From positions 1-30,123 of the IMG/VR virus record IMGVR_UViG_3300033994_000115: 30,123 nt of DNA. One strand, written 5' to 3'. Within the stretch, counting starts at the first letter, position 1. Every line of letters begins with the position of its first letter. A program made the translations under genes and the position numbers. This DNA comes from a virus. The notes under the pieces were generated by a model, which was not told the origin of the DNA, did not search any database, and saw only the letters and a program-made list of their open reading frames with translations. Positions 5,945 to 29,800 of this stretch are shown in pieces.

Positions 5945-8524
5945 TTATCTTTTACCATATGAATTTGAACTACTCTTATCAACTATTGCTGATACTTTTG
6001 ATGTAACTTTTTGTCCGTCCATATTAACGGATATTTTACCAGCATTTAAATCTGCTCTTAAACCTTTTATTTCTTCAATCAATTGAGCCGTACTATCAGT
6101 CTTACCTTCACCACCACCTTCACCACCACCTCCAAATAAGCTAGATAATCCACCCAATGCCATCAAAACAGGAAGTGCAAGTAACCCACTAACAGCAACA
6201 GCTGCTAATGCAAATGCCAATACAGTTAATGCTCCAGCTAATCCTAATATTGGCATATAATCTATTTGAGATACTGCTGATATTTGTTCCATTATAGCAG
6301 GTAGTGATGAGGATATTGCGCCAAATCCACTACCTATTAAATTCATACCAGTTCCAAAAACTATTAAAGCTGCTCCTAAAACAGCTATGCCCAATGCGCC
6401 AGCTAATACAAATGGTAGTATTAAACCAAGTCCGGCTGCAGCTGCGCCAAATAAAACCAACCCAGCTGCTGCGGCTAATACAGAATCTATACTTAATCCC
6501 TGAATTAAACTCATAGCAAATGCAAATGGTATCAATGCTGCTCCCAATATTGCTATTGCTATTGCTCCTTGTATCATAGAACCACTTGCTTTTGATAATA
6601 TGTATGCAATACCGGCCAATCCAACCAATCCAACTAATCCTTTACCAACATCTTCCCACTTAACCGTTGCAAACTGTTGGAATGCTTTAGCAGATACATA
6701 AAGTGCTGCAGCTAATATTAATAATGCAGCTGCACCCTTAATTAAATCACCTGATTTTATTTTTCCAAATTTATTTGCTTGGTCAGCTCCACCGCCAGCT
6801 GGTGTTGCTGCTGCACCTGGTGTTGCTCCTGCGGCTGGTGCTGCACCTGGAGCTCCTCCACCTTTAAATAGTTTACCAATTATTGGAATTTTGGAAGCCA
6901 TACCTTTTACATCCATTCCCATTTGTGCAAAAGAACCACCCAATTGACCAGCCATCATCACACCAGTTCCTAATCCCTTAACTATACTACCCATAGGGCC
7001 TGTTGCGAGAGCTGTCAATGTTTCTTTCATACTTTCAAACTTAGAAAGTTGAACAGTACCATCATCATTTAATTTATCAGAATTGGCCGCCATTTTTTGG
7101 AATTCATCAACTGATAATCCTAATAATTCTGCTGCTTTTCTCTTTTGGAAAATATCCATTTTATTGAATGCTTCTATACCACCCAATTGTTGTAATGTTT
7201 CTTTTACAGCTCCACCAATATTTCCTTCATATGCTAACCCTCTTGCTCTATCTAAGTTAAGTTGTTTACCAAGCATTGCTCCCAATTCCAATTCGCCATT
7301 AATAGATGTTTCAAAATCTAAAAGTGAATCAGTTACTTTGGTTAATGAATCCATACCAACACCTAACTTAGCTGCTGCTACTGCTGCTTTAGCTATATTT
7401 AACCCACCATCTTTACCATATTCGGCAAATGCCTTTGATGAACCAGCTACATCCTTCATTAAAGAATCAATTGGAACACCAGCAGCCTTACCCATTGCTT
7501 TTGTAGTTGCTGCCATATCCATAGCAGTTGAAGCAGAACCATCGTTCATTCTTGCAAAGTTACCAACTACATTAGCAGCTTCAGCACCACTAATACCCAT
7601 ATTAGTTGCCATTAAGTTGGTGTTCAATTGTGTGGCAAATGTTACATCCTTTAATCCTCCAAATTCTTTTGATAATCCCTTTGTTACTTCTTCAGCATCT
7701 TTAAATACAGCACCTAATGCAAATGATGATATTTGTGCCGAATCTACATAGCCTCCAAAACTTCTAACACTATCTCCCCATTTACTTATACCTTGCCCAA
7801 CTGCTGTTATTCCAAGACCAAGAAGAATCATAGGTTTTTTTAGAGTCGTTGTAATCATTGCAGCTATACCTTTAAATCTAGCCGCCATTCTATCAGCCTC
7901 GGCAGTTAAGTCTTTATATGCAGCTAATTCATCTTCAGTTAGACCTATTGTTTTTTGTAATTCTAAAGTTGTTAATTTTAATGTATCTTTATATTGATTT
8001 GCCCAAGCACCCAATTGCTTATTACTTTTTAATACATCATCATATTCTTCATTTATTAATTGTAAAAAGCTAACTTGATATTCATATTCTTTGGTAGCTT
8101 CTGCTAATTCTTCAGGAGTACCATCAGCAGCTGCTAACATATTTTGTTGTGACCTTGCTATATTTACTGCAGCCGAAGATAATGCGTTTGCTGCATCTAT
8201 CCCCTTTCCACCATCTGTTATATCAAATTGAATTTTACTCAATCCAGTTACTTGCTTACTGATTGAAGTGAATCCTTTTCCTAACGCATCTGATGCTCTA
8301 TTTGAAATAGTTATTTGCGATGCGAGATCGCTAAATTCTGTTGATGCTTTGGAAATATCCGTTTTTACTTTATCAACTTTACCAATAAATTGAGTTATCT
8401 TATCAATATTATTTTGAATCTCTTTTGCTTGCGCACCAGTTGATTTGTTTAATTGATTTTGTAATTCATTTAAACGTTCCGTTGCTTTTACTTGAGCATC
8501 TAATAATTTAACACTATCTGCCAT
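5945..8524 (-). CDS. Tail tape measure protein
   Basis: An 859-residue protein. The N-terminal 200 residues are charged and helical, with coiled-coil-like spacing (VKATERLNELQNQLNKSTGA and on). There is a hydrophobic segment near 230-250 (MILLGLGITAVG), a Gly/Ala/Pro linker near 560-590, then several long hydrophobic stretches from about 600 to 780 (GAAALLILAAALYVSAKAF; GAIAIAILGAALIPFAFAM). The C-terminus has the usual tape-measure ending, a glycine-rich run, then LIEEIKGLRADLNAGKISVN. Such proteins fill the tail tube, set its length and can enter the host membrane. Its place after the tube and chaperone genes and before the baseplate genes is diagnostic. It is longer than T4 gp29 (590 residues), which suggests a tail somewhat longer than T4's. 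No peptidase or lysozyme motif is evident. Confidence 0.85.
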   Translation of the reverse strand: MADSVKLLDAQVKATERLNELQNQLNKSTGAQAKEIQNNIDKITQFIGKVDKVKTDISKASTEFSDLASQITISNRASDALGKGFTSISKQVTGLSKIQFDITDGGKGIDAANALSSAAVNIARSQQNMLAAADGTPEELAEATKEYEYQVSFLQLINEEYDDVLKSNKQLGAWANQYKDTLKLTTLELQKTIGLTEDELAAYKDLTAEADRMAARFKGIAAMITTTLKKPMILLGLGITAVGQGISKWGDSVRSFGGYVDSAQISSFALGAVFKDAEEVTKGLSKEFGGLKDVTFATQLNTNLMATNMGISGAEAANVVGNFARMNDGSASTAMDMAATTKAMGKAAGVPIDSLMKDVAGSSKAFAEYGKDGGLNIAKAAVAAAKLGVGMDSLTKVTDSLLDFETSINGELELGAMLGKQLNLDRARGLAYEGNIGGAVKETLQQLGGIEAFNKMDIFQKRKAAELLGLSVDEFQKMAANSDKLNDDGTVQLSKFESMKETLTALATGPMGSIVKGLGTGVMMAGQLGGSFAQMGMDVKGMASKIPIIGKLFKGGGAPGAAPAAGATPGAAATPAGGGADQANKFGKIKSGDLIKGAAALLILAAALYVSAKAFQQFATVKWEDVGKGLVGLVGLAGIAYILSKASGSMIQGAIAIAILGAALIPFAFAMSLIQGLSIDSVLAAAAGLVLFGAAAAGLGLILPFVLAGALGIAVLGAALIVFGTGMNLIGSGFGAISSSLPAIMEQISAVSQIDYMPILGLAGALTVLAFALAAVAVSGLLALPVLMALGGLSSLFGGGGEGGGEGKTDSTAQLIEEIKGLRADLNAGKISVNMDGQKVTSKVSAIVDKSSSNSYGKR

Positions 8525-8529
8525 TTAAA

Positions 8530-8727
8530 TTATTTAGTTTTGCTAGCTTTTTCAACCTGATTAAAAACATTATCAAGCATTTTGCTAACATTATCAAGAG
8601 ATTTTGCTACTTCTGGGTTTCTTTCTTTTGTTTTATTTATAAATTGCTGGTCTAATCCTTTTTTATATGAATCAAAAAAGCTATCTATAAACTTATCCAC
8701 AAGTCCTTCATTTAATTTTTTTGCCAT
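8530..8727 (-). CDS. Small helical protein before the tape measure gene
   Basis: A 65-residue, lysine-rich protein predicted to be almost all helix (MAKKLNEGLVDKFIDSFFDS; then SKMLDNVFNQVEKASKTK). It is the first gene after a terminator and a promoter-like motif and ends five bases before the tape measure start, so both are likely read from one transcript. The position suggests a tape-measure partner or tail-assembly helper, but no family is recognised. The start is set by ATG at 8727-8725; no Shine-Dalgarno sequence precedes it. Confidence 0.7.
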   Translation of the reverse strand: MAKKLNEGLVDKFIDSFFDSYKKGLDQQFINKTKERNPEVAKSLDNVSKMLDNVFNQVEKASKTK

Positions 8728-8733
8728 GGTTAT

Positions 8734-8753
8734 TGTTTATATTGTATAAATAT
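8734..8753 (-). promoter_or_regulatory. Candidate late promoter before the tape-measure operon
   Basis: The coding strand reads TATTTATA-CAA-TATAAACA, a near-perfect inverted repeat (TTTATA-CAA-TATAAA). The same 20-base sequence occurs at 13288-13307 before another gene. It sits just downstream of the terminator at 8762-8789 and 7 bases before the ATG of the 65-residue gene. The promoter role is inferred from repetition and placement. Confidence 0.5.
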
Positions 8754-8761
8754 TGGATAAT

Positions 8762-8789
8762 AAAAAAGTGAGGATTAACGCATCCTCAC
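8762..8789 (-). terminator. Intrinsic terminator overlapping the end of the second chaperone frame
   Basis: The coding strand has a perfect 8-bp stem, GTGAGGAT and ATCCTCAC, with a 6-base loop GCGTTA, followed directly by six T. The first base of the TAA stop codon of the 82-codon frame pairs in the stem region and the rest lies in the loop. This is a textbook rho-independent terminator for the chaperone unit. Confidence 0.88.
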
Positions 8790-9023
8790 TTTCGATTTAC
8801 TTTGAGCTTTTTTCATCTCATCAGCTTCTTTTTTCTTCATTTCAACTAATTTATTGAAATAAAACCTTCTTAAATATACAGGCATATGGTAAACTTCAGA
8901 CCAAGTAAATCCATTACTGAATTGTACCATTTCCCAAATTTGCGAATGTAATTGTATCCTATAATCAAGCGGTAGGGTAAAAAAAGTTAATCCCGAAGGG
9001 TATATCCAGCGCCTCCGATTCAC
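8775..9023 (-). CDS. Second tail-assembly chaperone frame (gp51-like / GT-type extension)
   Basis: An 82-codon frame overlapping the last 59 bases of the gp26-like gene in another frame. Its conserved-looking core is TLPLDYRIQLHSQIWEMVQF, then GFTWSEVYHMPVYLRRFYFNKL, followed by a lysine/glutamate-rich helix. I recall similar short proteins beside gp26 homologues in marine T4-like phages, some annotated as gp51-like. As a free-standing gene it needs a GTG start at 9023-9021 with no Shine-Dalgarno sequence; an in-frame TAA lies two codons further up, so there is no better start. The residues before the core (MNRRRWIYPSG) look like out-of-frame noise from the upstream gene. It could instead be translated as a C-terminal extension of the gp26-like protein through frameshifting at 8979-8985. 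The stop codon sits inside a terminator hairpin. Confidence 0.7.
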   Translation of the reverse strand: MNRRRWIYPSGLTFFTLPLDYRIQLHSQIWEMVQFSNGFTWSEVYHMPVYLRRFYFNKLVEMKKKEADEMKKAQSKSKVRMR

Positions 9024-9774
9024 CAGTTATTTGTGATGTAAATTGGAATGTTAAATCCAAATCGGGACTAATTTCCTTAACATACTTTCTAAACGCCTTA
9101 GTATCTTTTGCTAAAAATGAGTTAATTACCCATCTATTGATAAATCCCCTATCAGTATTACCATCAACGGATTTAATCATATATTTTAATCTAGTTGTTA
9201 CATCAAATTGAGTAGATGCGTTTTTATTTAACTTTTCTAAAGCTTGAGTTTCTTTTGTTATTTCTTGCTCATCACCATGTGTAAGTAATTTAAATTCAAT
9301 TTCTTTACCATTTGAAGGTAATGTAAATTTATAAGTGTTTTCCGAATTCAATACTTCAATATCAATATCCTTTGTTTGTACTTTACCTAAATCAATAGTA
9401 ACAGCTTGCTTTTCTAAACTAAAAGGGTCAGTCATTTCTATTTCATAATCAGCACCATATCCTAAAATACGAGTTGCCAAAAGGATAGCGTTCTTATCAC
9501 CAATGTAAATATCATTTGGATTTACACCTGGCTCAACCACAACTGATTCAAATAATTTATCCAAAACAATACCTTTTTTGATAAGGTTTTGTGATGCAAG
9601 AATATCTTCTTCTCTTGCTGTCATATATTTGATTTCAATAGTACCCTTTCTTAAAGGATGTCCTTCAGGATATACTAATCCTTGAGATGGTAATTCAATG
9701 GTTTCCGTTGGGAAATCATTTTGTTTTGGTGCGGTTTGCATTTGCACCTTAGTTGTATTTGTCATTTCTGCCAT
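8965..9774 (-). CDS. gp26-like baseplate hub / tape-measure chaperone (T4_baseplate family)
   Basis: A 269-residue protein. The N-terminal segment IELPSQGLVYPEGHPLRKGT followed by IEIKYMTAREEDIL is the hallmark of the T4_baseplate (gp26-like) family. The middle (LLTHGDEQEI, DVTTRLKYMIKSVDG) and the basic helix near the C-terminus (INRWVINSFLAKDTKAFRKY) also fit. T4 gp26 (208 residues) takes part in hub and tape-measure assembly. The gene lies between tube and tape measure, where tailed phages keep their G/GT chaperone pair, and its end overlaps a second frame, as in those pairs. It is preceded by a terminator and a promoter-like motif, so it has its own unit. The start ATG at 9774-9772 has an A/T-rich leader. 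Confidence 0.85.
   Translation of the reverse strand: MAEMTNTTKVQMQTAPKQNDFPTETIELPSQGLVYPEGHPLRKGTIEIKYMTAREEDILASQNLIKKGIVLDKLFESVVVEPGVNPNDIYIGDKNAILLATRILGYGADYEIEMTDPFSLEKQAVTIDLGKVQTKDIDIEVLNSENTYKFTLPSNGKEIEFKLLTHGDEQEITKETQALEKLNKNASTQFDVTTRLKYMIKSVDGNTDRGFINRWVINSFLAKDTKAFRKYVKEISPDLDLTFQFTSQITGESEALDIPFGINFFYPTA
8979..8985 (-). other. Candidate +1/-2 ribosomal slip site in the chaperone overlap
   Basis: The coding strand reads AAC TTT TTT TAC in the gp26-like frame, a run of seven T inside the 59-base overlap. A Phe-tRNA on the second TTT can re-pair perfectly after moving +1 or -2, and either move enters the 82-codon frame at ACC (then TLPLDYR). The fused product would be 332 (+1) or 333 (-2) residues. 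The in-frame stop of the first gene is only 12 bases after the run. Confidence 0.45.
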
Positions 9775-9833: not shown

Positions 9834-9860
9834 AAAAAAGGGGATATTTTTGATATCCCC
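9834..9860 (-). terminator. Strong intrinsic terminator after the tail tube gene
   Basis: A perfect 8-bp stem, GGGGATAT and ATATCCCC, with a 5-base loop is followed on the coding strand by six T. A run of eight A precedes it, so the opposite strand also has a T-run. It lies 20 bases past the tube stop codon and ends the sheath-tube unit. Confidence 0.92.
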
Positions 9861-9880
9861 TTTTTTTTATTATTTTTAGA

Positions 9881-10369
9881 TTAGAATTCTAAGATTGCGT
9901 AATCATAAGATAGTGTTAATTCGATTGTTACTGGTTCGTTAGAATCGAATGCTAAATCTCCAAAGTTTGCTTGAGAGATAAATGCTCCTTTCAACTTCCA
10001 TTGTTCAATCTTATCACCAACTGGTCCTAATAGATAGAAATCAACATCTTTCTTATAGAAATCAGCGTATCCATCTCTACCAGTGATTGATTCATGTCCT
10101 AAACGAATCCACTCCATTACCGCTTGTGCTCCAGAAGGAACAATTGGGTCATAAAGTGTGATAGTGATATCTTGCCACTCACCTTTACCTTTCAACTTTC
10201 TCTTTACGTTGATATGGTCTAAAGTTACGGTTTCAAATTGAATTGTAGGTCTATTTGCTGCCTTTACAAGATATGAAGGGATATTGTCTATCTCCATCAC
10301 ATATCTATTTTTCATCTTCGGTTCGAAGTTCGTATAGAACATCTTATCAAACTCTAATATTTCTGCCAT
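9881..10369 (-). CDS. Tail tube protein (gp19-like)
   Basis: A 162-residue protein, almost the same length as T4 gp19 (163). Typical features are the start FDKMFYTNFEPKMKNRYVME, the segment RPTIQFETVTLDHINVKRKL, the segment WQDITITLYDPIVPSGAQAV, and the closing beta strands NEPVTIELTLSYDYAILEF. gp19-family proteins stack as hexameric rings to build the tube through which DNA leaves the virion. It lies directly after the sheath gene and before a strong terminator, as in most myoviruses. A purine-rich AAAAGGAA about 7-11 bases before the ATG is one of the few Shine-Dalgarno-like leaders in the window, fitting the high expression needed for this protein. Confidence 0.95.
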   Translation of the reverse strand: MAEILEFDKMFYTNFEPKMKNRYVMEIDNIPSYLVKAANRPTIQFETVTLDHINVKRKLKGKGEWQDITITLYDPIVPSGAQAVMEWIRLGHESITGRDGYADFYKKDVDFYLLGPVGDKIEQWKLKGAFISQANFGDLAFDSNEPVTIELTLSYDYAILEF

Positions 10370-13287: not shown

Positions 13288-13307
13288 TGTTTATATTGTA
13301 TAAATAT
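13288..13307 (-). promoter_or_regulatory. Candidate late promoter before the DUF7936-like gene
   Basis: The coding strand reads TATTTATA-CAA-TATAAACA, identical over 20 bases to the copy at 8734-8753 although the genes are unrelated. It lies 8 bases before the ATG at 13279. Confidence 0.5.
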
Positions 13308-13756: not shown

Positions 13757-16700
13757 TTATGCTTTATTAATATTAAATATAAAATCTTTAATTTTTTGTA
13801 ATTCTTCTTTTAGTAAATCTATTTCGTTAGACTGGTTTTTAATAATAGTTTGTTGTTCTTTGATAGCTTCAATGAATACACCAGCAAATTTACCATAATC
13901 AACACCATATTCATCAACATCAGCCGCATATGTTACAACCTCAGGAAGAAATTCTTCAACTTCTTGTGCGATTACACCAACATTTCTTTTTTGCGATTTA
14001 TCACTAATTACCGTATAGTAAACTCCTCTAAGTTTATCCAATATATCTAACGCATTTTCTACAGTTTCGATATTTTCTTTTTTACGTCTATCAGAAAAAC
14101 CTACTATGTTTCCTTCGGCGTAAATAGCACCACCAACATATATTCTATATGCACTTGATGTAGATGATGTCCCAAGTCCAGTACAGTTATTTCCGTTTGA
14201 ATGATACAATACCCATCTTCCAAAGTTTTGTAAATATATACCACCATTACCACTTTCCCACATATAGTGAGGTAATCCAGTTGAATCAATTACATGCCCA
14301 TACCATCCATTTCGTTGACCATCCATTCTCCACGCACCATATGTGATATTGTTTGGATAAAAATGCGCTGAGTTAATTCCAGAATATATTCCATGATGTC
14401 CTGTTAAGTTTTGCCAAGTGTACCAGAACGAATAATTTGAACCTCCATTCAATTGAATTAAAAGACCACTCATATCATAATCAGAATATAATCTAACACC
14501 CTCATATGAAGGACCATTGGCACCTAATTTGATACCAGTATGATATGCTATTCTTAAATCTGGATAAGGATAACCCCATCCACCACCTTCTTGGAAGATA
14601 TTATAGGCAGGTATTCCATATACGCCAGAATCACCACCAACTCCTACGAAATCAATTCTTCTTATTCTACAATAGTCATTGAATTCACCACTACTAAATT
14701 GAGAATAACCATCACCATTCCAATAATATCCAGTATTATTGTAATCGTATATAAATGTACTTCTTAATTCATATGTATAAGTTCTGTTTCCAGAATAGTG
14801 GTTGATATAAGTCTCATATCCGTTTTGACAATCTAAGTGTAAGTTACCATTTGTAGCACATACCGATGCAGTTCCATCAGGTCTACCATTCGTTCCAACA
14901 TATAGATATGCTCCCCACGTCCAGTTAGGTCCATGCAATGCACCACCCCTAATTCTTAAACCAGTGTTTGATACAGCGTTAGGGTCTATATAATATCCAG
15001 TATCATCCGAATCATAGAATACGTTTGCACGAAGGTCACCAGAACCACCGCCACCATACATAGCGAATTCTTTCCACCCAGATCTACCACCACCCCATGC
15101 ACCTCTTGCCCAATATCTATTTTCAGTTGCGTTGTGTGCCCCAACCATCATCCAACCATATGCCTGTCCACCACCAGCAGTTGCGTAGTGTTGTCCAGAT
15201 ACAATACCCTGTGCGTGAATGTAACCACCACCTTGAGGGTGACCAGTTCCAGTACCCCAAATATCCCAAGCACCAAATCCAGATTGCCAAGCACTATCCC
15301 AGTTACCATAAGATGTTCCCCATCCCCAAGTTCCTGTCCAATAGTCTTGGTCACTTACAATATCTCTACGAGTAGTCAACATTCTACCTAAGTTGAATGC
15401 CCCTCTACGAACATAATCCGTAATTGCGTAAAAGTTAGATGTACCATCACCATTGAAATAATATCCAGTATTTGAATCATAGTATATTGGTGTTCTTACA
15501 TCTTGCCCTGCAAATAATATATTATTTACTCTAACGTGTTGGTCTCCTTCCCCAATAGAAAACAGCTGAGAACCTCCATAATATTTTATAGAGTTATTAT
15601 AAAATCTTATACCACCATAGTTAAAGGCGGCACCGATTTTTATACCAGTATGCCAATCTAAAGTAAGTTTTGTATAATTACCATTATAGTTTTCCATAGT
15701 TGTTCCTATGGAGTAACCCTGTATATCACTCTCACCATTTGAGTTAAAAAATAAAATTCCTTGTCCGGCAGTAGTATAAACTTGGCCACCTTGATACCCC
15801 ATATTAACTCTACTTATTCTGGATTGGCTATTTGGGTCTACATAATAAGTTGTATCATTGGAATCATAGAATATTGGTGCTCTTAATGAATTACCTCCAG
15901 TTAAGTAATCGTTGGCGTAAACAGTACCATTTGAGTACCATTCCATTGTAGTAAAACGAGTACCGCTGGTGTTAGTATTATAAAAATATGTATTACCACC
16001 TGTGTTGAATCTCATATACGCTTGTCCCTGTCCCGTATTTATTCTACCAAATCCAGCAGGAGAACCACCATCATTTTGTACGTTATATCCAAAACCACCA
16101 TCATTCCAAGTTACACCAGGTTCAGAAACCCACATTTGTAAATAAGATGGAGTTCCAGTACCCATTTCACTACCAATCGCAGTAATTCTAAGTGTAGAGT
16201 TACCATGTCCACCAGCTACTTCCAATCTACCTCTCAAATAAGAACCACCATTAGGGTCTAAATAATATCCGGTATTATTTGTATCATAAAATATAGGCGC
16301 TCTAAAATCACCTTGAGCAGTACCAATACCTCCAACGATTATATTACCATTATTTTGGTCAATTCTAAATTTCTCATAAGCCGTTCTATTACCACTTACT
16401 CTTGAAGGTACAGTAAATGAACGAATTTGTCCAGCCGAAGCTTCTGCCGTAAAACAAAATAAATTATTTGGATTATCATGATACAATCCCCAACCAGTAT
16501 ATGGTTCATAATCAACAAATATACCAGTCCAACCTTCTGCTGTTTCCTGCTGTATTGCAAATGATGCTCCAGCTGATGATGTTCCACTTGATACTGAAAG
16601 AATTGCTGGTTTATTATGATTTGTATGTCTTAGTGAACCTGCAATTTGAATTGAAGTTCCCGTTGAGTTATAATCTGCGTAAAATGCTGTATCATTCGAA

Positions 16701-19700
16701 TCGTAATATATAGGAGTGTACATTGCTACGGTTGAAAATATAGCGCCGGTTGTATAGATACCACCATTCATTTGTAGTCTGGTGTATGTTGTACCATTAT
16801 TTCTTAATGCAATAACATGTGGGTCACCCGGTAAGAATGTACTACTAGCATATTCATATCCTAATCCGTACATATTACCAATAGGCCAACTTTCACCGAT
16901 TGTCCAAATTACTTTTGATGCAGTACCATTTACATTATAATCACCCATCAAACCACCATTGTTTCTACTAACAAGATAATTGCTATACCACATTCTACCT
17001 ACAAAGTTACCTTCGTTTAAGTTTGAGTATCCATTAGGGTTTGAATAATATCCTGTATTCTCAGAATCGTAGAATATTGGCGCTCTCATATCACCATCGG
17101 CCTGCATTTGACCTGCTCTATTAAAATAGAATCTATCACCAATTCCATTAAAATGGAAAATTAATGCTTCATATCCATTCCAACCATCATTTACCAACCA
17201 AGGGTAATATGAATTGCTATATGCGGTATTACTTAAGCCAATTAAATATCTATTATTGTGAGATAATTGTAAAGCGTAAGTATTTCCACCATTAAAGTTA
17301 CCACTATTACCAACTTTTAATGCTAATAATCTAGATTGATTATCTCCATCTATATAATATCCACTATTATTTGAATCATAGTATATTGGAGAATACATCG
17401 CACTACCAGCATTAACATTAGCACCGGCTGTAAATGATAATGGTGTTCTTAAATTACGAAGGTCACCAGAAATATTTGAATAACTATCAGATTCAATTGC
17501 TACTGAATATCCTTCAGAAACATTCATTACACCATCGTAATATGTACCATTTTGTATTTTTCTCAATACAACTTGTCCATAAGACCAAGATGATGAACCA
17601 TTACCAATTACGATACAATACCTACCATCTTTAACACCAACTCTTACAGGTTTATCAGTTTGTCCAATTACTTCCGCATTTATATTATACCATGCACCAT
17701 TCCAGTTATGCCCACCAACTCTTACAGTTGATGCGGCATTTCCATTGTATTCGTAGATGTCAATTACCGCATGAATCATACCATAGTTACCAGTTCCGCC
17801 AGGGAATTTAATAACTACTGCTCCAGTTGCTCCAGTTGCTCCCCAATATGCAACAGGCCTACCAACAATATTATTTTGTGCAATACCACCTGCGATTCTC
17901 AATGATGTTGCTGATGTGGCTGGGTTTAAGAAAAATGCAGTATTATCTTCATCATAAAATATAGGTGCTCTAGATGAACCATATGCCCAATGATTACCAG
18001 CGGTATCATATCCACCAACTGTTCTACCAGCGGTTTCAGAATATATATGAAACGCATCAGTACTACCTAATAATTGTGATGATGTTCGTTTACCAACATA
18101 CCAACTACTACCACTACCACCAATATAACGAACCATTGCTTCATACCCATTTCCCGGATTAATAGTAAGATATTTATGTGATGCGCCTGTTATATTAATA
18201 GGAGTGGTGTTTGTTCCAATCATACCAATATAAGAAACATCATTAATACTATTACCATTCAAATACATTGTACCATACAACCAGTTTGTACCAGTTGAAT
18301 AAATACCAGATGGATGATATGATGCGTTTCCAGTTCCTGCTACGTTACTATTTCCCTGATAAGAATATGCTTGTAATGTATTTAAGTTTGAGTTACTTGC
18401 TCCGTTGATAAAAAATGCCGTATTATCGGAATCATAGAATATTGGTGAACGCAATGAATATGGTGCAATAACATTACCCGATGTATCAAATCTTAAATGA
18501 TAATCACCCAATCCATTTCTATAAATACCAAATCCACTTGCACCAACACCATAACCACCAGTATTTGCTGTATCGGAGAATATGAATCTCCATGCATTTG
18601 CACTACCAGCGGTCCAATAACTATCTATACTACTACCATTAGTTATATTTAAATTATTAAATGTTACAGTATCCGATGTACGAATGTTTTGATTCATTAA
18701 ATGTACTTCAGTAAAACCAGGTCCAGTATTTATTGAAGCAAATGTTGGAGAATCCGATGTTCTAACTGCTTGATTTAAATAGTCTGAAAATTGATATCCA
18801 TCCCATAAATCCGCATCTAATCCAGAACCAGCTCCATCATTACCATCATTCCAATGCTTTTTCCAACCTTGACGAATTCCATTTTGTATAGTTTGTGTAT
18901 ATATGTCACCAGGACCAGTACCAGTCATACGAACTGCTAATGTATTACTATAATAAGAAAGTGGTGAACCATGCCCCATTCTTATGGTATTGTGCCAATC
19001 ACTCGTTGGTGCTTCCGTAATACCAAGACCAGATGCTTGCCAATATTGTAATGAATTATCTGGAGTATCTCTAGTTGTATTCAAATGATTTGCATTCGTA
19101 GCAGTGCCAGATAAAGGACCAGTTATATTTGCAAAGGTTACACTATCCGTTGTTCTAACATTTTGATTCATTAGATGCACTTCAGTAACACCAGGTCCCG
19201 TATTTATTGAAGCAAATGTTACAGCATCCGTTGTACGAACATTCTGGTCCATTAAATAAACTTCGGTTGCTCCTTGTCCTGTGTTTAATGTGCCACTAAG
19301 AACTACGTTACCACTTACGTTTACGTTATCATCAAATGACCATCTATCATTACCCTCATCCCAAATAAATTGTTTTGTTGCTGCATTACCTCTCTTAATT
19401 TCTATACCAGAGTTTTCAGTTGGTGCAGTTGATGCTCCAATATCTGCGTTAAGTGTAATAATATTATCACCTACGTTAAGAGTTGTTGTATTAATATATG
19501 TTGTTGTACCACTTACAGTAAGGTCACCACTAATTGTAGCGTTACCAGTTACTGCTAATGTAGTACCATCAAAAGTTAAATTAGCTTCTGCATTTATTGT
19601 ATTTGCACTTACCGCAGTTAATACTCTATTATCGGCTGGGTTAGTAAATGATGTAATTCCAGCATTGATACCACTCGTACCAGAAGTTCCTGATGTGCCA

Positions 19701-21820
19701 GATGTACCACTTGACCCATTAACACCAGAAGTTCCCGATGTGCCGCTTGTGCCAGAAGTTCCGGATGTACCAGCAGAACCACTCACTCCAGAAGTTCCCG
19801 ATGTGCCGCTTGTGCCAGAAGTTCCTGATGAACCTCTACTACCAGAAGTTCCCGAAGTGCCACTTGTGCCAGCCGAACCACTCACTCCAGAAGTTCCCGA
19901 AGAACCACTCACTCCAGAAGTTCCCGATGTGCCGCTTGTGCCAGAAGTTCCGGATGTACCAGCAGAACCACTTATTCCACTAGTCCCACTACTACCACTT
20001 ATTCCAGACGTTCCTGATGTTCCTGATGACCCAGCACTTCCACTTACACCACTTGTACCAGAAGTTCCTGATGTACCTGCTGAGCCTGAAGAACCTTGTG
20101 CTCCAGAAGTTCCCGATGTACCATTTGAGCCTGAAGAACCTTGTGCTCCAGATGTACCAGAAGTTCCAGATGTGCCATTTGAGCCTGAAGAACCTTGTGC
20201 TCCAGATGTACCAGAAGTTCCCGATGTGCCAGAAGTTCCTGATGAACCACCAGTACCACTTACTCCACTCGTCCCACTACTACCACTTGTGCCAGAAGTT
20301 CCCGATGTGCCAGAAGTTCCTGATGTACCACTACTTCCAGAAGAACCACTTCCTCCACCAGCTCCAGTTATACCAGAAGTTCCTGATGAACCACTTGTAC
20401 CAGAAGTTCCCGATGAACCCCTACTACCACTTGTACCAGAAGTTCCCGATGTGCCGCTTGTACCCGAACTACCACCAGCCCCACCAATACCACTTGTACC
20501 AGAAGTTCCCGATGTACCGCTTGTGCCAGAAGTTCCAGCAGAACCACTTACTCCCGAACTACCACTACTACCACCAGCACCACTTACTCCAGAAGTTCCA
20601 GATGTTCCGGAAGTTCCACTACTACCATTTGAACCCGATGTACCAGATGTTCCCGATGAACCACTTGCTCCACTCGTACCACTACTTCCACTAATTCCAC
20701 TTGTACCAGCTGAACCAGTTGAACCTGAAGTACCACTACTCCCACTACTTCCGCTTGTACCACTACTTCCGCTTGTGCCAGAAGTTCCCGATGTTCCAGA
20801 AGAACCACTTGTCCCACTACTTCCGCTTGTACCAGAAGTTCCAGCTGAACCAGAAGTTCCTGATGTACCAGAAGTTCCTGATGTGCCAGAAGAACCACTT
20901 GTCCCACTACTTCCACTTGTGCCAGAAGTTCCCGATGTACCAGATGTTCCTGAGGTTCCTGATGTGCCACTTGTGCCAGAAGTTCCTGATGTACCACTAC
21001 TTCCACTTGTGCCAGAAGTACCGCTTGTACCACTTGTACCAGACGTTCCTGAGGTGCCGCTTGTACCTGATGTACCAGAAGTTCCCGAAGTTGCTGCTGC
21101 AAATCTTCTACTAATTCTTCCTGTTGTTGTATTAAGAACTAATACTTCGTTTGTTGTTTCATCGGTAGGTATTGTATCTCCCGTTACAAACATAGAACCA
21201 CTAACAGATAAACTACCAGTTATTTCTTGCTTATCATTTGAATAATCTCCAAATTTATTTGAACCAGATGCATAAATTATAGAAGATGAAATATATGTTG
21301 CAAATAATTCCGTTGTATTTATTTTTCCACTAACATTTAAATTACCAGTAATTGTTTCGTTACCAGTTAATGATAAATTTCCAATTATATTTGTAGAACC
21401 ACTAAGATTTGTACTACCAGTTACATTTAGCCCACCACTTATTGATGTTTTTACATTTACTACTAATCCATTATTTGGAGAAATTATTGCTGTTGCAGAA
21501 CCTGATTTAAGTTGGTTTATATCGCCAATAGCGGATGCATTAATATTAAACAATCCACCACCATCACCTCTAAATAAAGATGCGGTTATAGATGATGAAA
21601 CATTAAGTGAACCCGTTATTTGCGTATTTGCTTTTAATTGCAAAGGGTTATTTCCAAATGAATCTATTTCATCCGTTTGAATTTTAGAAGCACTAAAATT
21701 TCCAACTACATCTACCGATTGTGATGAAAAACTAGCTATTCTACTTCCACTTACAAATAAAGAAACTGTATCTTTATTTTGCTGATTTAAACCATTAGGA
21801 TTGTTACCCAAATACTCCAT
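13757..21820 (-). CDS. Giant tail fibre: collagen-like stalk, ten fibre repeats and S74 self-cleaving chaperone
   Basis: A 2687-residue protein. Residues 1-245 hold repeated fibre motifs (ITGSLNVSSSITASLFRGDG, GGLFNI). Residues 246-717 are 157 uninterrupted Gly-X-Y triplets, mostly Gly-Thr-Ser and without proline. Residues 720-1120 hold beta-rich fibre segments, including repeats of the form STINTGPG.TEVHLMNQN.RT and the phage-fibre motif GLDADLWDGY. Ten copies of a (R)-(A/S/T)-P-I-(F/Y)-YD-x-N/D-T-G/A-Y/F-Y/F motif follow. The C-terminus from Ser2576 (SDRRKKENIETVENALDILD, then VGVIAQEVEEFLPEVVTYAA) is a peptidase S74 intramolecular chaperone with its Ser/Lys motif and a final coiled coil. 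S74 domains trimerise the fibre, then cut themselves off, here probably before Ser2576. It is likely a long tail fibre or whisker that contacts the host. The ATG follows the previous stop by 11 bases. Confidence 0.9.
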   Translation of the reverse strand: MEYLGNNPNGLNQQNKDTVSLFVSGSRIASFSSQSVDVVGNFSASKIQTDEIDSFGNNPLQLKANTQITGSLNVSSSITASLFRGDGGGLFNINASAIGDINQLKSGSATAIISPNNGLVVNVKTSISGGLNVTGSTNLSGSTNIIGNLSLTGNETITGNLNVSGKINTTELFATYISSSIIYASGSNKFGDYSNDKQEITGSLSVSGSMFVTGDTIPTDETTNEVLVLNTTTGRISRRFAAATSGTSGTSGTSGTSGTSGTSGTSGTSGTSGSSGTSGTSGTSGTSGTSGTSGTSGTSGTSGSSGTSGSSGTSGTSGTSGTSGSAGTSGTSGSSGTSGSSGTSGTSGTSGSSGTSGSSGSSGTSGSTGSAGTSGISGSSGTSGASGSSGTSGTSGSNGSSGTSGTSGTSGVSGAGGSSGSSGVSGSAGTSGTSGTSGTSGTSGIGGAGGSSGTSGTSGTSGTSGSRGSSGTSGTSGSSGTSGITGAGGGSGSSGSSGTSGTSGTSGTSGTSGSSGTSGVSGTGGSSGTSGTSGTSGTSGAQGSSGSNGTSGTSGTSGAQGSSGSNGTSGTSGAQGSSGSAGTSGTSGTSGVSGSAGSSGTSGTSGISGSSGTSGISGSAGTSGTSGTSGTSGTSGVSGSSGTSGVSGSAGTSGTSGTSGSRGSSGTSGTSGTSGTSGVSGSAGTSGTSGTSGTSGTSGVNGSSGTSGTSGTSGTSGINAGITSFTNPADNRVLTAVSANTINAEANLTFDGTTLAVTGNATISGDLTVSGTTTYINTTTLNVGDNIITLNADIGASTAPTENSGIEIKRGNAATKQFIWDEGNDRWSFDDNVNVSGNVVLSGTLNTGQGATEVYLMDQNVRTTDAVTFASINTGPGVTEVHLMNQNVRTTDSVTFANITGPLSGTATNANHLNTTRDTPDNSLQYWQASGLGITEAPTSDWHNTIRMGHGSPLSYYSNTLAVRMTGTGPGDIYTQTIQNGIRQGWKKHWNDGNDGAGSGLDADLWDGYQFSDYLNQAVRTSDSPTFASINTGPGFTEVHLMNQNIRTSDTVTFNNLNITNGSSIDSYWTAGSANAWRFIFSDTANTGGYGVGASGFGIYRNGLGDYHLRFDTSGNVIAPYSLRSPIFYDSDNTAFFINGASNSNLNTLQAYSYQGNSNVAGTGNASYHPSGIYSTGTNWLYGTMYLNGNSINDVSYIGMIGTNTTPINITGASHKYLTINPGNGYEAMVRYIGGSGSSWYVGKRTSSQLLGSTDAFHIYSETAGRTVGGYDTAGNHWAYGSSRAPIFYDEDNTAFFLNPATSATSLRIAGGIAQNNIVGRPVAYWGATGATGAVVIKFPGGTGNYGMIHAVIDIYEYNGNAASTVRVGGHNWNGAWYNINAEVIGQTDKPVRVGVKDGRYCIVIGNGSSSWSYGQVVLRKIQNGTYYDGVMNVSEGYSVAIESDSYSNISGDLRNLRTPLSFTAGANVNAGSAMYSPIYYDSNNSGYYIDGDNQSRLLALKVGNSGNFNGGNTYALQLSHNNRYLIGLSNTAYSNSYYPWLVNDGWNGYEALIFHFNGIGDRFYFNRAGQMQADGDMRAPIFYDSENTGYYSNPNGYSNLNEGNFVGRMWYSNYLVSRNNGGLMGDYNVNGTASKVIWTIGESWPIGNMYGLGYEYASSTFLPGDPHVIALRNNGTTYTRLQMNGGIYTTGAIFSTVAMYTPIYYDSNDTAFYADYNSTGTSIQIAGSLRHTNHNKPAILSVSSGTSSAGASFAIQQETAEGWTGIFVDYEPYTGWGLYHDNPNNLFCFTAEASAGQIRSFTVPSRVSGNRTAYEKFRIDQNNGNIIVGGIGTAQGDFRAPIFYDTNNTGYYLDPNGGSYLRGRLEVAGGHGNSTLRITAIGSEMGTGTPSYLQMWVSEPGVTWNDGGFGYNVQNDGGSPAGFGRINTGQGQAYMRFNTGGNTYFYNTNTSGTRFTTMEWYSNGTVYANDYLTGGNSLRAPIFYDSNDTTYYVDPNSQSRISRVNMGYQGGQVYTTAGQGILFFNSNGESDIQGYSIGTTMENYNGNYTKLTLDWHTGIKIGAAFNYGGIRFYNNSIKYYGGSQLFSIGEGDQHVRVNNILFAGQDVRTPIYYDSNTGYYFNGDGTSNFYAITDYVRRGAFNLGRMLTTRRDIVSDQDYWTGTWGWGTSYGNWDSAWQSGFGAWDIWGTGTGHPQGGGYIHAQGIVSGQHYATAGGGQAYGWMMVGAHNATENRYWARGAWGGGRSGWKEFAMYGGGGSGDLRANVFYDSDDTGYYIDPNAVSNTGLRIRGGALHGPNWTWGAYLYVGTNGRPDGTASVCATNGNLHLDCQNGYETYINHYSGNRTYTYELRSTFIYDYNNTGYYWNGDGYSQFSSGEFNDYCRIRRIDFVGVGGDSGVYGIPAYNIFQEGGGWGYPYPDLRIAYHTGIKLGANGPSYEGVRLYSDYDMSGLLIQLNGGSNYSFWYTWQNLTGHHGIYSGINSAHFYPNNITYGAWRMDGQRNGWYGHVIDSTGLPHYMWESGNGGIYLQNFGRWVLYHSNGNNCTGLGTSSTSSAYRIYVGGAIYAEGNIVGFSDRRKKENIETVENALDILDKLRGVYYTVISDKSQKRNVGVIAQEVEEFLPEVVTYAADVDEYGVDYGKFAGVFIEAIKEQQTIIKNQSNEIDLLKEELQKIKDFIFNINKA
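14720..18455 (-). repeat. Ten dispersed copies of a fibre repeat motif
   Basis: The motif RAPIFYDSxNTGYYxDPNG and variants occurs ten times, near 18437, 17950, 17380, 17068, 16702, 16281, 15861, 15481, 15010 and 14740, with spacing of about 90-190 residues. Between copies the sequence differs strongly, as if distinct beta domains are joined by a common linker. Residues after YD vary between S/E/T/Y and N/D. Confidence 0.85.
19670..21085 (-). repeat. Collagen-like (Gly-Thr-Ser)n coding repeat, 157 triplets
   Basis: Glycine occupies every third residue from 246 to 717 with no break. Most triplets are GTS, with GSS, GVS, GIS, GSA, GSN, GAQ, GAG and GSR mixed in. At DNA level, GGA-ACT-TCT units alternate with GGN-ACA-TCN or GGN-ACA-AGT units, giving a 9-base and an 18-base periodicity. 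Confidence 0.95.
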
Positions 21821-23879: not shown

Positions 23880-26800
23880 TTAATTAAAATTCTTACCACC
23901 TACAAATCCATAATATGTAGTACCACCATTAAATGTGTAGAATACTAACACATCAACACCACCAGATCCTGTTAGAACTGGTGCGTTTGGTCCATTCACC
24001 CAATCAATATTAACAGGCCATACAGGAGTATATGAACCAGCGTTTACAGTTACTAAAGTAAATCCAAATGCGTTTGATGCAGGTGGGTTAGTAAATGTTA
24101 TTGTTGGTGTACTATTAAATTGTCTTCTAAAGTTGTTTGCTGTTGATAAATCTATTGTTACACTACCCCCAGTTCCTAAATCATTAAAAGTTTCTCTAAA
24201 TGTTGTTGCTGTTATGTTTTGTGTTGCTGATATTGCTCCCGTAACATCTATATTACCAGTTTGTGTAGTTGTACCAGTTATTGTTAATGTAGAACCATCA
24301 AATGTTAAATTGTCTTCTACCTGTACACCTGTTGGTGCATTTACATATGTAACTACTCCGTTGTTGGTTGTACCACTTATTGGGAATCCAGAAGTACCAG
24401 AAGTTCCAGAACTAAATCCTACTGCAGATGTTCCAGAAGTACCACTTATACCAGAAGTTCCAGAAGAAAAGCCAGGTGCGTTTGTTCCAGATGTTCCAGA
24501 AGAACCAGCCTCTCCAGTAGAACCATTAGCTCCACTAGTACCGCTACTACCAAAGAATGTTCCATTAACACCAGAAGTTCCAGACGTTCCAGAAGTTCCC
24601 GATGAAGATGTTAATCCAGAAGTACCTGCCGAGCCGCTTGTACCAGAAGTACCACTACTACCAAAGAATGTTCCATTCAATCCAGATGTACCACTAGTCC
24701 CAGAAGTTCCCGATGAACCACTTATTCCAGAAGTTCCACTACTACCATTTGAACCAGATGTGCCACTTGTACCACTACTTCCAAAGAATGTTCCATCTAA
24801 GCCAGAAGTTCCTGATGTGCCAGAAGTTCCTGATGAACCACTTTCTCCACTTGTACCAGATGTTCCCGATGTTCCAGAAGTTCCACTGCTTCCGAAGAAT
24901 GTTCCATCTAAACCGGAAGTTCCAGAAGTTCCAGAAGTTCCCGATGAACCACTTATTCCGCTTGTGCCAGACGTTCCTGAAGTTCCAGACGTACCGCTAC
25001 TTCCAAAGAATGTACCATCAAAACCAGAAGTTCCAGAAGTACCGCTTGTACCCGATGTGCCATCAGTTCCATTTATACCACTTGTACCAGAAGTTCCTGA
25101 TGTGCCAGATGTTCCCGATGAACCAAAGAATGTACCATCAAATCCACTTGTACCGCTTGTGCCCGATGAACCGCTTTCTCCAGATGTGCCAGATGTTCCA
25201 GAAGTTCCTGATATACCAGAAGTACCACTACTACCAAAAAATGTTCCATCAAATCCAGAAGTTCCTGATGTGCCATCCGTACCACTTATACCACTAGTAC
25301 CACTTGTACCACTTTCTCCGCTTGTACCAGAAGTACCCGATGTTCCAGATGAACCAAAGAATGTGCCATCTAAACCAGAAGTTCCCGAAGTACCAGCCGT
25401 TCCAGAAGTTCCTGATGTGCCAGAAGTTCCCGATGAACCACTTTCTCCAGAAGTTCCTGATGAACCAAAGAATGTTCCATCTTGTCCAGAAGTTCCTGAA
25501 GTTCCAGATGTGCCAGAAGTTCCCGATGTGCCATTCTCTCCGCTTGTACCTGATGTACCATTACTACCACTTTCTCCAGAAGTTCCTGAAGTACCAAAGA
25601 ACGTTCCATCTAACCCACTTGTACCAGAAGTTCCAGAAGTACCATCACTTCCATTTACACCGCTTGTACCAGAAGTTCCAGAAGTACCACTACTTCCACT
25701 TTCTCCAGAAGTTCCCGATGAACCAAAATATGTTCCATCCTGTCCAGAAGTTCCAGAAGTTCCCGATGTACCATCGCTTCCGTTTACGCCACTTGTACCA
25801 GAAGTACCACTACTCCCACTTTCTCCAGAAGTTCCCGAAGAACCAAAATATGTTCCATCCAAACCAGATGTGCCAGATGTTCCCGATGTTCCACTCACTC
25901 CAGAAGTTCCTGATGTGCCATCACTTCCAGAAGTTCCTGATGTGCCATCACTTCCAGAAGTTCCCGATGTACCAGAAGTACCAGCAGAACCAGACGTTCC
26001 CGATGTACCGCTTGTGCCATCAGTTCCAGAAGTTCCTGATGTACCATCACTTCCAGAAGTTCCCGATGTGCCATCTATACCAGATGTACCTGAAGTTCCT
26101 TCAGAACCATTTGTACCTGAAGTTCCAGCCGAACCATTTGTGCCAGAAGTTCCTGAAGTTCCCGATGTGCCATCTGAACCACTTGTACCACTTGTGCCAG
26201 AAGTTCCTGAAGTTCCATCACTACCACTTATACCAGAAGTTCCTGAGGTGCCAGAAGTTCCAGAAGTACCATCTACTCCGCTTGTACCAGAAGTTCCTGA
26301 TGTGCCGCTTGTACCAGAAGTTCCTTCCGAACCATTAGTACCACTTGTGCCGCTTGTACCACTACTTCCGCTTGTGCCAGATGAACCACTTGTACCTTCA
26401 GTTCCCGATGTGCCAGAAGTTCCTGATGTGCCAGAAGTTCCTGATGTACCAGAAGTTCCACTACTACCACTTGTGCCAGAAGTTCCCGATGAACCTTCAC
26501 TACCAGAAGTTCCCGATGTTCCTGACGTTCCCGAAGTACCGCTTGTGCCAGATGTACCACTACTTCCAGACGTACCATCACTACCAGAAGTTCCTGATGT
26601 GCCAGAAGTTCCAGATGTGCCAGAAGTTCCAGATGAACCAGTTGTACCGGATGTACCGCTTGTGCCAGAAGTTCCCGATGTACCACTACTTCCCGCTTGA
26701 CCATCAGAACCACTTGTACCAGAAGTTCCAGCAGAACCAGTTGTACCGCTTGTGCCAGAAGTTCCTGATGTACCACTTGTGCCAGCTGTACCCGAGGTTC

Positions 26801-29800
26801 CAGATGTACCAGCCGAACCAGATTCACCGGCAGTTCCCGAAGTACCTGCCGTACCACTAGTTCCAGATGTGCCAGAAGTTCCCGATGTACCACTACTACC
26901 ATTCGAACCAGATGTGCCAGAAGTTCCCGATGTACCAGAAGTTCCCGAAGTACCAGCGGTTCCAGCAGAACCTGTACTACCATTACTTCCGCTTGTGCCA
27001 GAGGTTCCAGATGTACCAGAAGTTCCCGATGAGCCACCACTTCCAGAAGTTCCAGATGTACCACTTGTTCCAGAAGTTCCTGATGAACCAGAAGACCCAG
27101 AAGTTCCCGAGGTACCAGACGTACCTGATGTTCCACGAGTTCCAGAAGTTCCTGATGTGCCGCTTGTACCACTACTTCCCGATGTACCATCCGAACCGCT
27201 TGTGCCGCTTGTACCAGACGTTCCCGATGTACCAGAAGTTCCTGATGTGCCAGACGTTCCAGAAGTTCCTGATGTACCTGATGTACCAGAAGTTCCTGAT
27301 GTGCCGCTTGTACCACTACTTCCTGATGTACCATCAACGCCAGAAGTTCCCGATGTACCGCTTGTACCAGACGAACCTTCACTACCAGAAGTTCCTGATG
27401 TACCAGACGTACCAGAACTTCCACTTTCTCCGCTTGTACCAGAAGTTCCTGATGTACCCGATGTACCATCCGTACCACTTACTCCAGAAGTTCCTGAAGT
27501 ACCAGAAGAACCAACTGCTGCAGCTACGTTTCTATATGCTAATTTTTTCGATACAGTATCCCAAATTACTACTTGCTCATATGATGCAGATGGTAAATTT
27601 CCTATTAATACACTACCACTAACTCCTAAACTTCCACTAACAGTTAAGTTTGCATTTATACTACTATCTTTATTTACTTGTAAGAATGATGCCGTATTTA
27701 CTCCTTCCGCATTTAGAGCGTAAAGAGCGTATGATGCGGTGAATGCTAAAGATGCAGTTCCAACTAACATTGAAGAAGTTTGTGAACTAAGTAAATCACC
27801 AATACCACCGCCAGTACCACCACCACCTAATATAGTTACTAATACTCCATCTGAACCAGATGGTGTAACAGTTACACCACTACCAGTAAAGTTAATTTTT
27901 CCTACTTGAGATTTTGCTAATGAACTTGTATAATAAACAAACAAATCAGTACCACCCTGTCCTGCATTTAATGCATATGATGCGGTTAATGCATAAGAAG
28001 AACTTACTGCACTAAACACAGCCATTGATGATGTTTGTGAATTTCTTACAAAGTTTTCCAAATCACCCAATGCTGCCAATGATGCTGAATTAAATCCAAC
28101 AATACTTTCAGCCACACCAGCTCTAACTGCATATGATGCTGATAGAACATTACCAAATACTCTATCACCAGTTATCGTACCATTAATCAACGAACCACCA
28201 CTTCCAATTACAACATGCCCAGAAGTTAATCCAGCAAATTTAATTTGAATTGTATCATCATCGATTGATTTTATAGTTCCAGGTAAAATTTGGTCTTCAG
28301 AACCAGTAGCGTAAACCTGAACCATTGGGTATCTAATTCCCAAATTATGTACAATTGTTAAATCACTAACATTATTAAATGATACAGTTTCAGTTAATGA
28401 AGTTTCGGGTTGAGGTACAAAATATCCTCGATTTTCATCAAATCTTAAAATATCATATTCTGCAGATGCCGTAGGTCCTAATCCTTGAAAATTATATGTA
28501 CCTAAGAATGAGCCAGTAAATAATGCAGATTTAATGATTCCACTTGCAGTTATATTAGTTACAGTTATTTTATTTAGTACACTCAAATCACCTTCAATAG
28601 ATGATGATGTATTTACTACAAATCCATTATTAGGAGAAATTCGTGCAGTTACAGAACCAGATTGTAGTAAAGAAGTTTCAAATGCTAAATTTGCAATATT
28701 AATATTTCTAATACCACTACCATCTCCCACAAATGAAGAACCAGAAGATAATATTAAATCACTACCAGTAACAAATAATCCACCACTAACACTTAAGTTA
28801 CCAGACACAAATGTTCTAGTCCCAATTTCCAAACCTCTATTAGGAGATATTACTGCCTGAACCGAACCAGATATAATTCTATCTAACTTAAGGTCTTGCA
28901 ATGCGTTTGCAGGAATATTAAATAATCCACCACCATCACCTATATAAAGTGCAGCAGTTATTGGTACGTTTACATCTAATTTTAATGGGTCAATAATAGC
29001 AACACCAGAACCAGAATTAATTTTAAATAATTCAAGTCCTTCAATTGATTCCGGTGGAATATTAAATAATCCAGCACCATCACCATAGTAAATAGATGCT
29101 GTAATTGAGCCACTAATTGCTACCGATGATGTGAATTGAGATTGATATGAACCAGAAGATGGTGCGGTTACTACTCTAAACGTATCACCACTTGCTACCG
29201 ATGCAGTTGCCGAACCACTTGCTATCAATGGTGCAGCTGATGCCTGTACATTTGTTAAAAATCTACCATCACCAAATACAAATCCTCTTGCTGTTAAATC
29301 ATCTGCGGTTAATGAACCACTTACATCAATTGAACCAGTAAATCTAGAACCAATAGCTGAACCAGTTACACCAGTTGTTACTATAAATGTATCTCCACTT
29401 TGAACCGATGCCGTTACCGAACCACTTGCTATCAATGGAGCTGCTGCAGCAACAACGTTAGTAATAAATCTACCATCTCCAAATAAAAATCCAGTTGATG
29501 TTACATCTACTGCTGATATCGAACCACTTACTGATACTGAACCGGTAAATTGAGAACCGATTTGAGAACCAGTTGCTCCAGTGGTTACTATAAATGTGTC
29601 ACCACTTGTTACCGATGCAGTTGCCGAACCACTTGCTATCAATGGAGATGCTGCCGCTTGTACGTTTGTTATAAATCTACCATCACCAACAAAGAATCCA
29701 TCATTAGATAGTGTTATACTTCCACTTACTGAAATACTTCCGCTAAATTGAGAACCACTTTCTTGCGATTGAACTCTAAATCCAAAATCAGGACTTACCG

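Follow-up and report, generated by a model that had tools for sequence, protein, structure and literature searches.

A tail assembly chaperone gene of the G/GT type, spread over two overlapping reading frames and probably expressed in two forms through a +1 frameshift, lies between the tail tube and tape-measure genes of the virus studied here. We put the probability of this reading, in which ORF1 and ORF2 are one gene, at about 0.88, mainly on the strength of sequence comparisons among relatives. The analysed DNA, referred to below as the window, is positions 1 to 30,123 of virus record IMGVR_UViG_3300033994_000115 (30,123 nucleotides), and the features listed in Table 1 are on the minus strand.

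Probably one gene in two reading frames

The two frames overlap by exactly 59 bases, with ORF2 in the +1 (equivalently, -2) frame relative to ORF1. The overlap is crossed by the sense sequence AAC TTT TTT TAC CCT, which contains a run of seven T's at 8985-8979 (minus strand). An earlier note on this DNA, made from the sequence alone, had described these frames, their overlap, the T-run and their location between tube and tape measure, and all of its coordinates are correct. It had also described the second frame as having a weak GTG start, no Shine-Dalgarno (SD) sequence and a stop codon just upstream, and this too holds: a TAA lies 6 nt upstream of the GTG, and the search for an SD sequence at the GTG found none, the best anti-SD energy being +1.9 kcal/mol.

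Table 1. Features of the chaperone locus and its neighbours in the window.
Feature	Coordinates	Strand	Remarks
Tape-measure protein gene	5945..8524	(-)	phrog_4372 tape measure, E 1.4e-7
Intrinsic-terminator-like hairpin	8764..8793	(-)	directly 3' of ORF2; 12 pairs, T tail
ORF2, from GTG	8775..9023	(-)	82 aa
C-terminal extension read after the predicted +1 slip, GT-like T domain	8775..8978	(-)	67 residues + stop
Candidate slip site AAC TTT TTT TAC	8977..8988	(-)	P-site Phe codon 8982-8980 would re-pair at 8981-8979 (+1)
Short hairpin CCC-TTC-GGG	8992..9000	(-)	between GGAGG and slip site; weak in the window, strong in many relatives
Internal GGAGG (anti-SD complement), proposed stimulator	9012..9016	(-)	29 nt upstream of slip codon
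GTG, nominal ORF2 start	9021..9023	(-)	judged not used; no SD, not conserved
ORF1, short chaperone (TAC-N / gpG-like; gp26 family)	8965..9774	(-)	269 aa
Terminator-like hairpin	9834..9866	(-)	after tube gene, upstream of ORF1
Tail tube protein gene	9881..10369	(-)	PF06841, E 7.4e-9; phrog_4542, E 2.5e-31

In the mechanism that we propose, most ribosomes would read ORF1 to its own stop codon and produce the short form. The peptidyl-tRNA-Phe on the second TTT of the slip site would at times move forward by one base and re-pair with the overlapping TTT, so that ACC would be read next. Slipped ribosomes would then make a predicted product of 332 residues, 265 from ORF1 and 67 from ORF2, that ends in a small helical domain. 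If the two forms work like lambda gpG/gpGT, coating of the tape-measure protein would fall to the short one and recruitment of tube subunits to the long one. The frame switch at the T-run, its +1 direction and the conservation of both products are strongly supported by the comparisons described below; we infer the ribosomal nature of the slippage, its efficiency and the roles of the two forms. The features on which the G/GT assignment is based are the position between tube and tape measure, an overlapping second frame whose start is not conserved, and a switch of coding constraint at the slip site.

Strong terminator-like hairpins follow both the tube gene and ORF2, which suggests that the chaperone gene is transcribed separately; a search against Rfam gave only sub-threshold matches, one of which covers a terminator hairpin. 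The space between ORF2 and the tape-measure gene also holds a 65-aa ORF (8530-8727), and a small ORF is annotated at the equivalent place in Microcystis phage Mel-JY01. Two different genes are preceded by the same AT-rich leader of 20 bases (8734-8753 and 13288-13307), which may be a promoter or start-site motif. Elsewhere in the window, 13757-21820 and 23880-30050 encode very long structural proteins (2687 and 2056 aa), likely tail fibres, in which Gly-Thr-Ser triplets are repeated at length (GTSGTSGTSG).

Frame switch and slip codon among relatives

Scans of viral contigs, together with the named phages, gave 272 loci with a match to ORF1, and ORF2 could be placed in 262 of them. The second frame was +1 in 259 and -1 in 3, a recurrence beyond coincidence, so the frame order and slip site that the earlier note had proposed to check in homologues are kept. 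The search of the 272 loci found no in-frame fusion of ORF1 and ORF2. Among the three -1 loci, L091 has a -1 heptamer, and in L264 and L269 ORF2 follows the ORF1 stop, starts at an ATG of its own and has additional residues at its N-terminus, so that the frameshift gene is split naturally. With ORF2 a separate frame in these two, not every relative has the fusion. The gene order is shared by the Flavobacterium phages immuto, Microcystis phage Mel-JY01, Bacillus phage SP-15 and Listeria phage LIS04, whose annotations give ORF1 and then a gap or a small ORF at the place of ORF2; the annotations of these and similar phages thus miss the predicted long chaperone. We found no relatives of ORF1 in bacterial genomes, and no relatives of XacN1 or RM378 in viral contigs except RM378 itself.

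Coding constraint changes frame at the T-run. In 39 close relatives, pN/pS up to the slip was 0.18-0.30 in frame 0 and 1.16 in the +1 frame; after the slip it was 0.30 in the +1 frame and 1.52 in frame 0. Values for the alternative frame spanned 0.94-1.5 overall, and the switch was less clear in the four codons of direct overlap past the slip (0.7 vs 1.1). The switch is pinned to the T-run by 25 loci whose ORF2 frame is open for just 9 nt ahead of the first codon read after the slip.

Slip-site statistics were compiled for 190 distinct +1 loci. As these loci are related, their counts are not statistically independent; the type of slip site changed at least 7 times on a tree of 96 representatives. 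The codon at the slip position was TTT in 156 loci, CTT in 29 and CTA in 5. It was never TTC, a codon that makes up 27% of the Phe codons elsewhere in the same ORF1s. The base preceding TTT TTT was T in only 5 of the 190 loci, against about 99 expected from codon usage, and a T at this position would create the -1 heptamer T TTT TTT. Re-pairing of the P-site codon one base forward fits TTT_T (153 loci), CTT_T (29) and TTT_C (2), while CTA_T (5) and TTT_A (1) do not fit unless one assumes wobble or a slip at the TTT before them. Clear +1 sites also occur in named phages: CTT TGG in Flavobacterium immuto, TTC TTT CGT in Streptococcus GXN1 and TTT TTT CAC in SP-15. That TTT TTT is hardly ever preceded by T, together with the way the sites can re-pair, strongly supports +1, rather than -1 or -2, as the direction of the proposed slippage. 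A lambda-type -1 slip, moving one base back on an X XXY YYZ heptamer, would not reach ORF2, whose frame is wrong for it.

A -2 slip on the T-run, as in Mu-like phages, would enter the same frame and give a 333-residue product with an extra Phe, and TTT TTT T permits such re-pairing in the window and in most relatives. Clean re-pairing two bases back is, however, impossible at 51 of the 190 distinct sites (TTC TTT, TTT CTT, CTT TTT and TTT CTA), where the +1 move stays possible; these sites are homologous to the seven-T sites and the types interconvert on the tree. We therefore consider -2 slippage highly improbable. The earlier note had left the choice between +1 and -2, and between 332 and 333 residues, undecided; the +1 slip and the 332-residue product are the options that the comparisons favour. 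The same variant sites bear on slippage of RNA polymerase, which on a run of seven T's might yield a minority of mRNAs one base shorter, as is known on homopolymers (PMC5009743). At TTT CTT T and TTC TTT T, which are homologous to it, no more than 3-4 T's stand in a row, yet the frame order is kept, and we give transcriptional slippage a very slim chance. A homopolymer is also where a false indel in the sequence, or decay to a pseudogene, might split one gene in two, but hundreds of independent contigs, and finished phage genomes as well, show the arrangement, and it is never fused in frame; the survey refutes this explanation, which we regard as virtually ruled out.

Alternatively, ORF2 could be an independent small gene translated by coupling from the GTG at 9023, a near-cognate ATA or an internal ATG. 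The GTG does exist, the window has an in-frame ATA 6 nt after the GGAGG, an ATG opens ORF2 in L264 and L269, and the cyanophage counterpart is annotated as a gene apart, gene 51. Against this, the GTG has no SD sequence and is not conserved among relatives, and the +1 frame upstream of the slip shows, as noted above, no coding constraint. Moreover, 44 of the 190 loci offer ORF2 no ATG, GTG or TTG in its frame as far as 12 codons beyond the slip, the kind of outcome that the check proposed in the earlier note called for, and the 25 loci that open only 9 nt before the conserved part leave little room for one. A separate gene would also leave the preference for TTT over TTC and the avoided T unexplained, and we think it highly improbable.

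Sequence elements upstream of the slip site

The GGAGG within ORF1 and the hairpin that follows it are, by comparison with synonymous shuffles, conserved beyond protein constraint in many relatives. Anti-SD energy peaked 34-37 nt upstream of the slip codon, at -6.9 kcal/mol compared with -3.5 kcal/mol in the shuffles, and in a thinned set of 53 the values were -7.46 vs -5.12 (p 4e-6). The segment from -30 to -2 had a minimum free energy of -5.55, against -3.52 in the control (thinned set, p 1.5e-5). SD-like element and hairpin occurred together in 52% of 79 representatives and in 9% of shuffles, and the element is missing from roughly 40-50% of thinned lineages. Pairing of the GGAGG with the T-run was also above control (-3.95 vs -2.99, p 1.5e-4), and the two explanations of GGAGG conservation are inseparable in this analysis. 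Regions past the slip fold slightly better than shuffles, a modest difference.

Two roles were considered and rejected. The idea that the hairpin sets the GGAGG at a fixed spacing (mode 3 nt) found no special clustering relative to synonymous shuffles, and GGAGG as a start signal for ORF2 at the ATA conflicts with the many loci that have a stop further down that frame.

We suggest that both elements may favour the forward slip. Hairpins upstream of a slip site are regarded as an obstacle to slipping backward (PMC10885494). A more specific possibility is that the GGAGG, about 29 nt upstream and brought nearer by the hairpin or acting with it, is a dedicated stimulator of forward slippage, of which the split ribosome-binding site (RBS) of T4 gene 25 could be a relic or a re-use; we hold this joint proposal to be unlikely as a whole. 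If true, it would place such a stimulator in phages whose own genes have no SD sequences (the window has just a partial one ahead of the tube gene) and which probably infect SD-blind bacteria. To judge from the related Flavobacterium phages and from the gene starts lacking SD sequences, the host is probably a member of the Bacteroidota, and ribosomes of Bacteroidia ignore SD sequences yet retain the prfB +1 frameshift (PMC8710568, PMC9976891).

Relation to T4 gp26/gp51 and to known frameshifts

ORF1 matched PF12322 (T4_baseplate, gp26) with E 1.3e-6 and 28.7 bits, above the Pfam gathering cut-off of 24.5, and phrog_150 with E 1.6e-11; among its relatives, PF12322 scores reach 1.5e-28 in SP-15 and 5e-71 in S-PM2. 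ORF2 had no match in Pfam or PHROG. T4 gp26 and gp51 are themselves homologous (profile E 1.7e-20): gp51 resembles gp26 as far as residue 205, beyond which comes an extension collinear with ORF2, and the Phe-Phe of T4 gp26 aligns with the slip codons. The alignment of ORF2 to gp51 204-254 is weak (hhalign P 0.023). By sequence, ORF1 corresponds to T4 gp26 and, through this weak link, ORF2 probably to the C-terminal extension of gp51. The idea in the earlier note that gp26/gp51 may be the counterpart of G/GT is supported, with one refinement: gp51 joins a gp26-like N-domain and the extension in one gene, and ORF2 would match the extension only.

ORF1 and ORF2 were modelled separately with AF2. 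The ORF1 model (pLDDT 89.5) resembled viral structures named baseplate hub subunit or hub assembly chaperone, and it matched HK97 gp13 (2ob9) weakly, at rank 5 (E 2.1, prob 0.18). The ORF2 model has three helices; among its matches, all weak (E 0.76 and above), are Gp51 from P-HM1 and a pair of proteins that bear the name tape measure chaperone. A sequence search of solved structures with a mixed ORF1/ORF2 alignment gave no match.

This gene family appears to have arrived at several ways of making its two products. A large sister group of T4 would keep the frameshift in the +1 direction. In S-PM2 and in 56 of 56 distinct loci from cyanophage relatives, the site reads T TTT TTC and ORF2 lies in the -1 frame; by their sequence they would switch frame by -1 at the same Phe-Phe codons. 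In these cyanophage gp26 loci (L284-L363), gene 51 is probably a frameshift extension and not a separate gene. XacN1 and RAS14 have T TTT TTT with -1. In T4, genes 26 and 51 are on opposite strands and divergently oriented, so T4 needs no frameshift. One family thus offers natural pairs for comparison, the direction of the slip being predicted by whether or not a T precedes TTT TTT. Frameshifted tail chaperones are already well known; what looks new is limited to the +1 direction across a group, the switch of direction at one codon pair and the upstream elements.

Frameshifts in tail chaperone genes are described as conserved except in T4, and HSTV-2 is named as probably +1 (Atkins et al. 2016, PMC5009743). 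The tail assembly chaperones of T4-like phages have been assigned as gp26 (TAC-N) and gp51 (TAC-NC) by Vladimirov, Gautam and Davidson 2022, as reported in PMC10885494 and PMC12846349, and the title of that paper proposes another mechanism for T4-like phages. With T4 our locus shares the gp26 family and the collinear extension, but T4 uses two genes and no frameshift; with gp26/gp51 of Kyanoviridae cyanophages such as S-PM2 it shares the family, the Phe-Phe codons and the order before the next large gene, but there the slip is -1. The archaeal myovirus HSTV-2 (+1 inferred, PMC5009743) likewise has a chaperone frameshift in a contractile-tailed virus, and Vandenendeviridae and Andersonviridae have one in their TAC (-1 on GTTTTT, PMC12846349); both differ in slip site.

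The upstream elements recall two systems outside the chaperones. Bacterial prfB, including that of Bacteroidia (PMC8710568), makes the same CTT T to TTT slip as the immuto-type sites and has an SD-like purine element upstream. Unlike prfB, the sites described here have no stop codon in the A site, and their SD-like element lies about 29 nt rather than 3 nt upstream, with a hairpin between. The split RBS of T4 gene 25 (PMC3014915) has its SD about 27 nt upstream, again with a hairpin between, at the 3' end of gene 26; its position in gene 26, at the T4 gene 26-25 junction (L093 in our set), matches that of the GGAGG-hairpin in the present family, and a shared origin is possible. There it serves initiation of gene 25, whereas here no start codon is present.

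A close functional parallel that we propose is lambda gpG/gpGT (Xu, Hendrix and Duda 2004, 2013, 2014; reviewed in PMC5009743). Lambda differs in slipping by -1 at a different sequence, compared with the +1 slip at NTT T predicted here, and in having no detectable sequence similarity. The two systems share the location of the pair between tube and tape measure, a second ORF without a usable start and, as predicted for our locus, a short and an extended chaperone.
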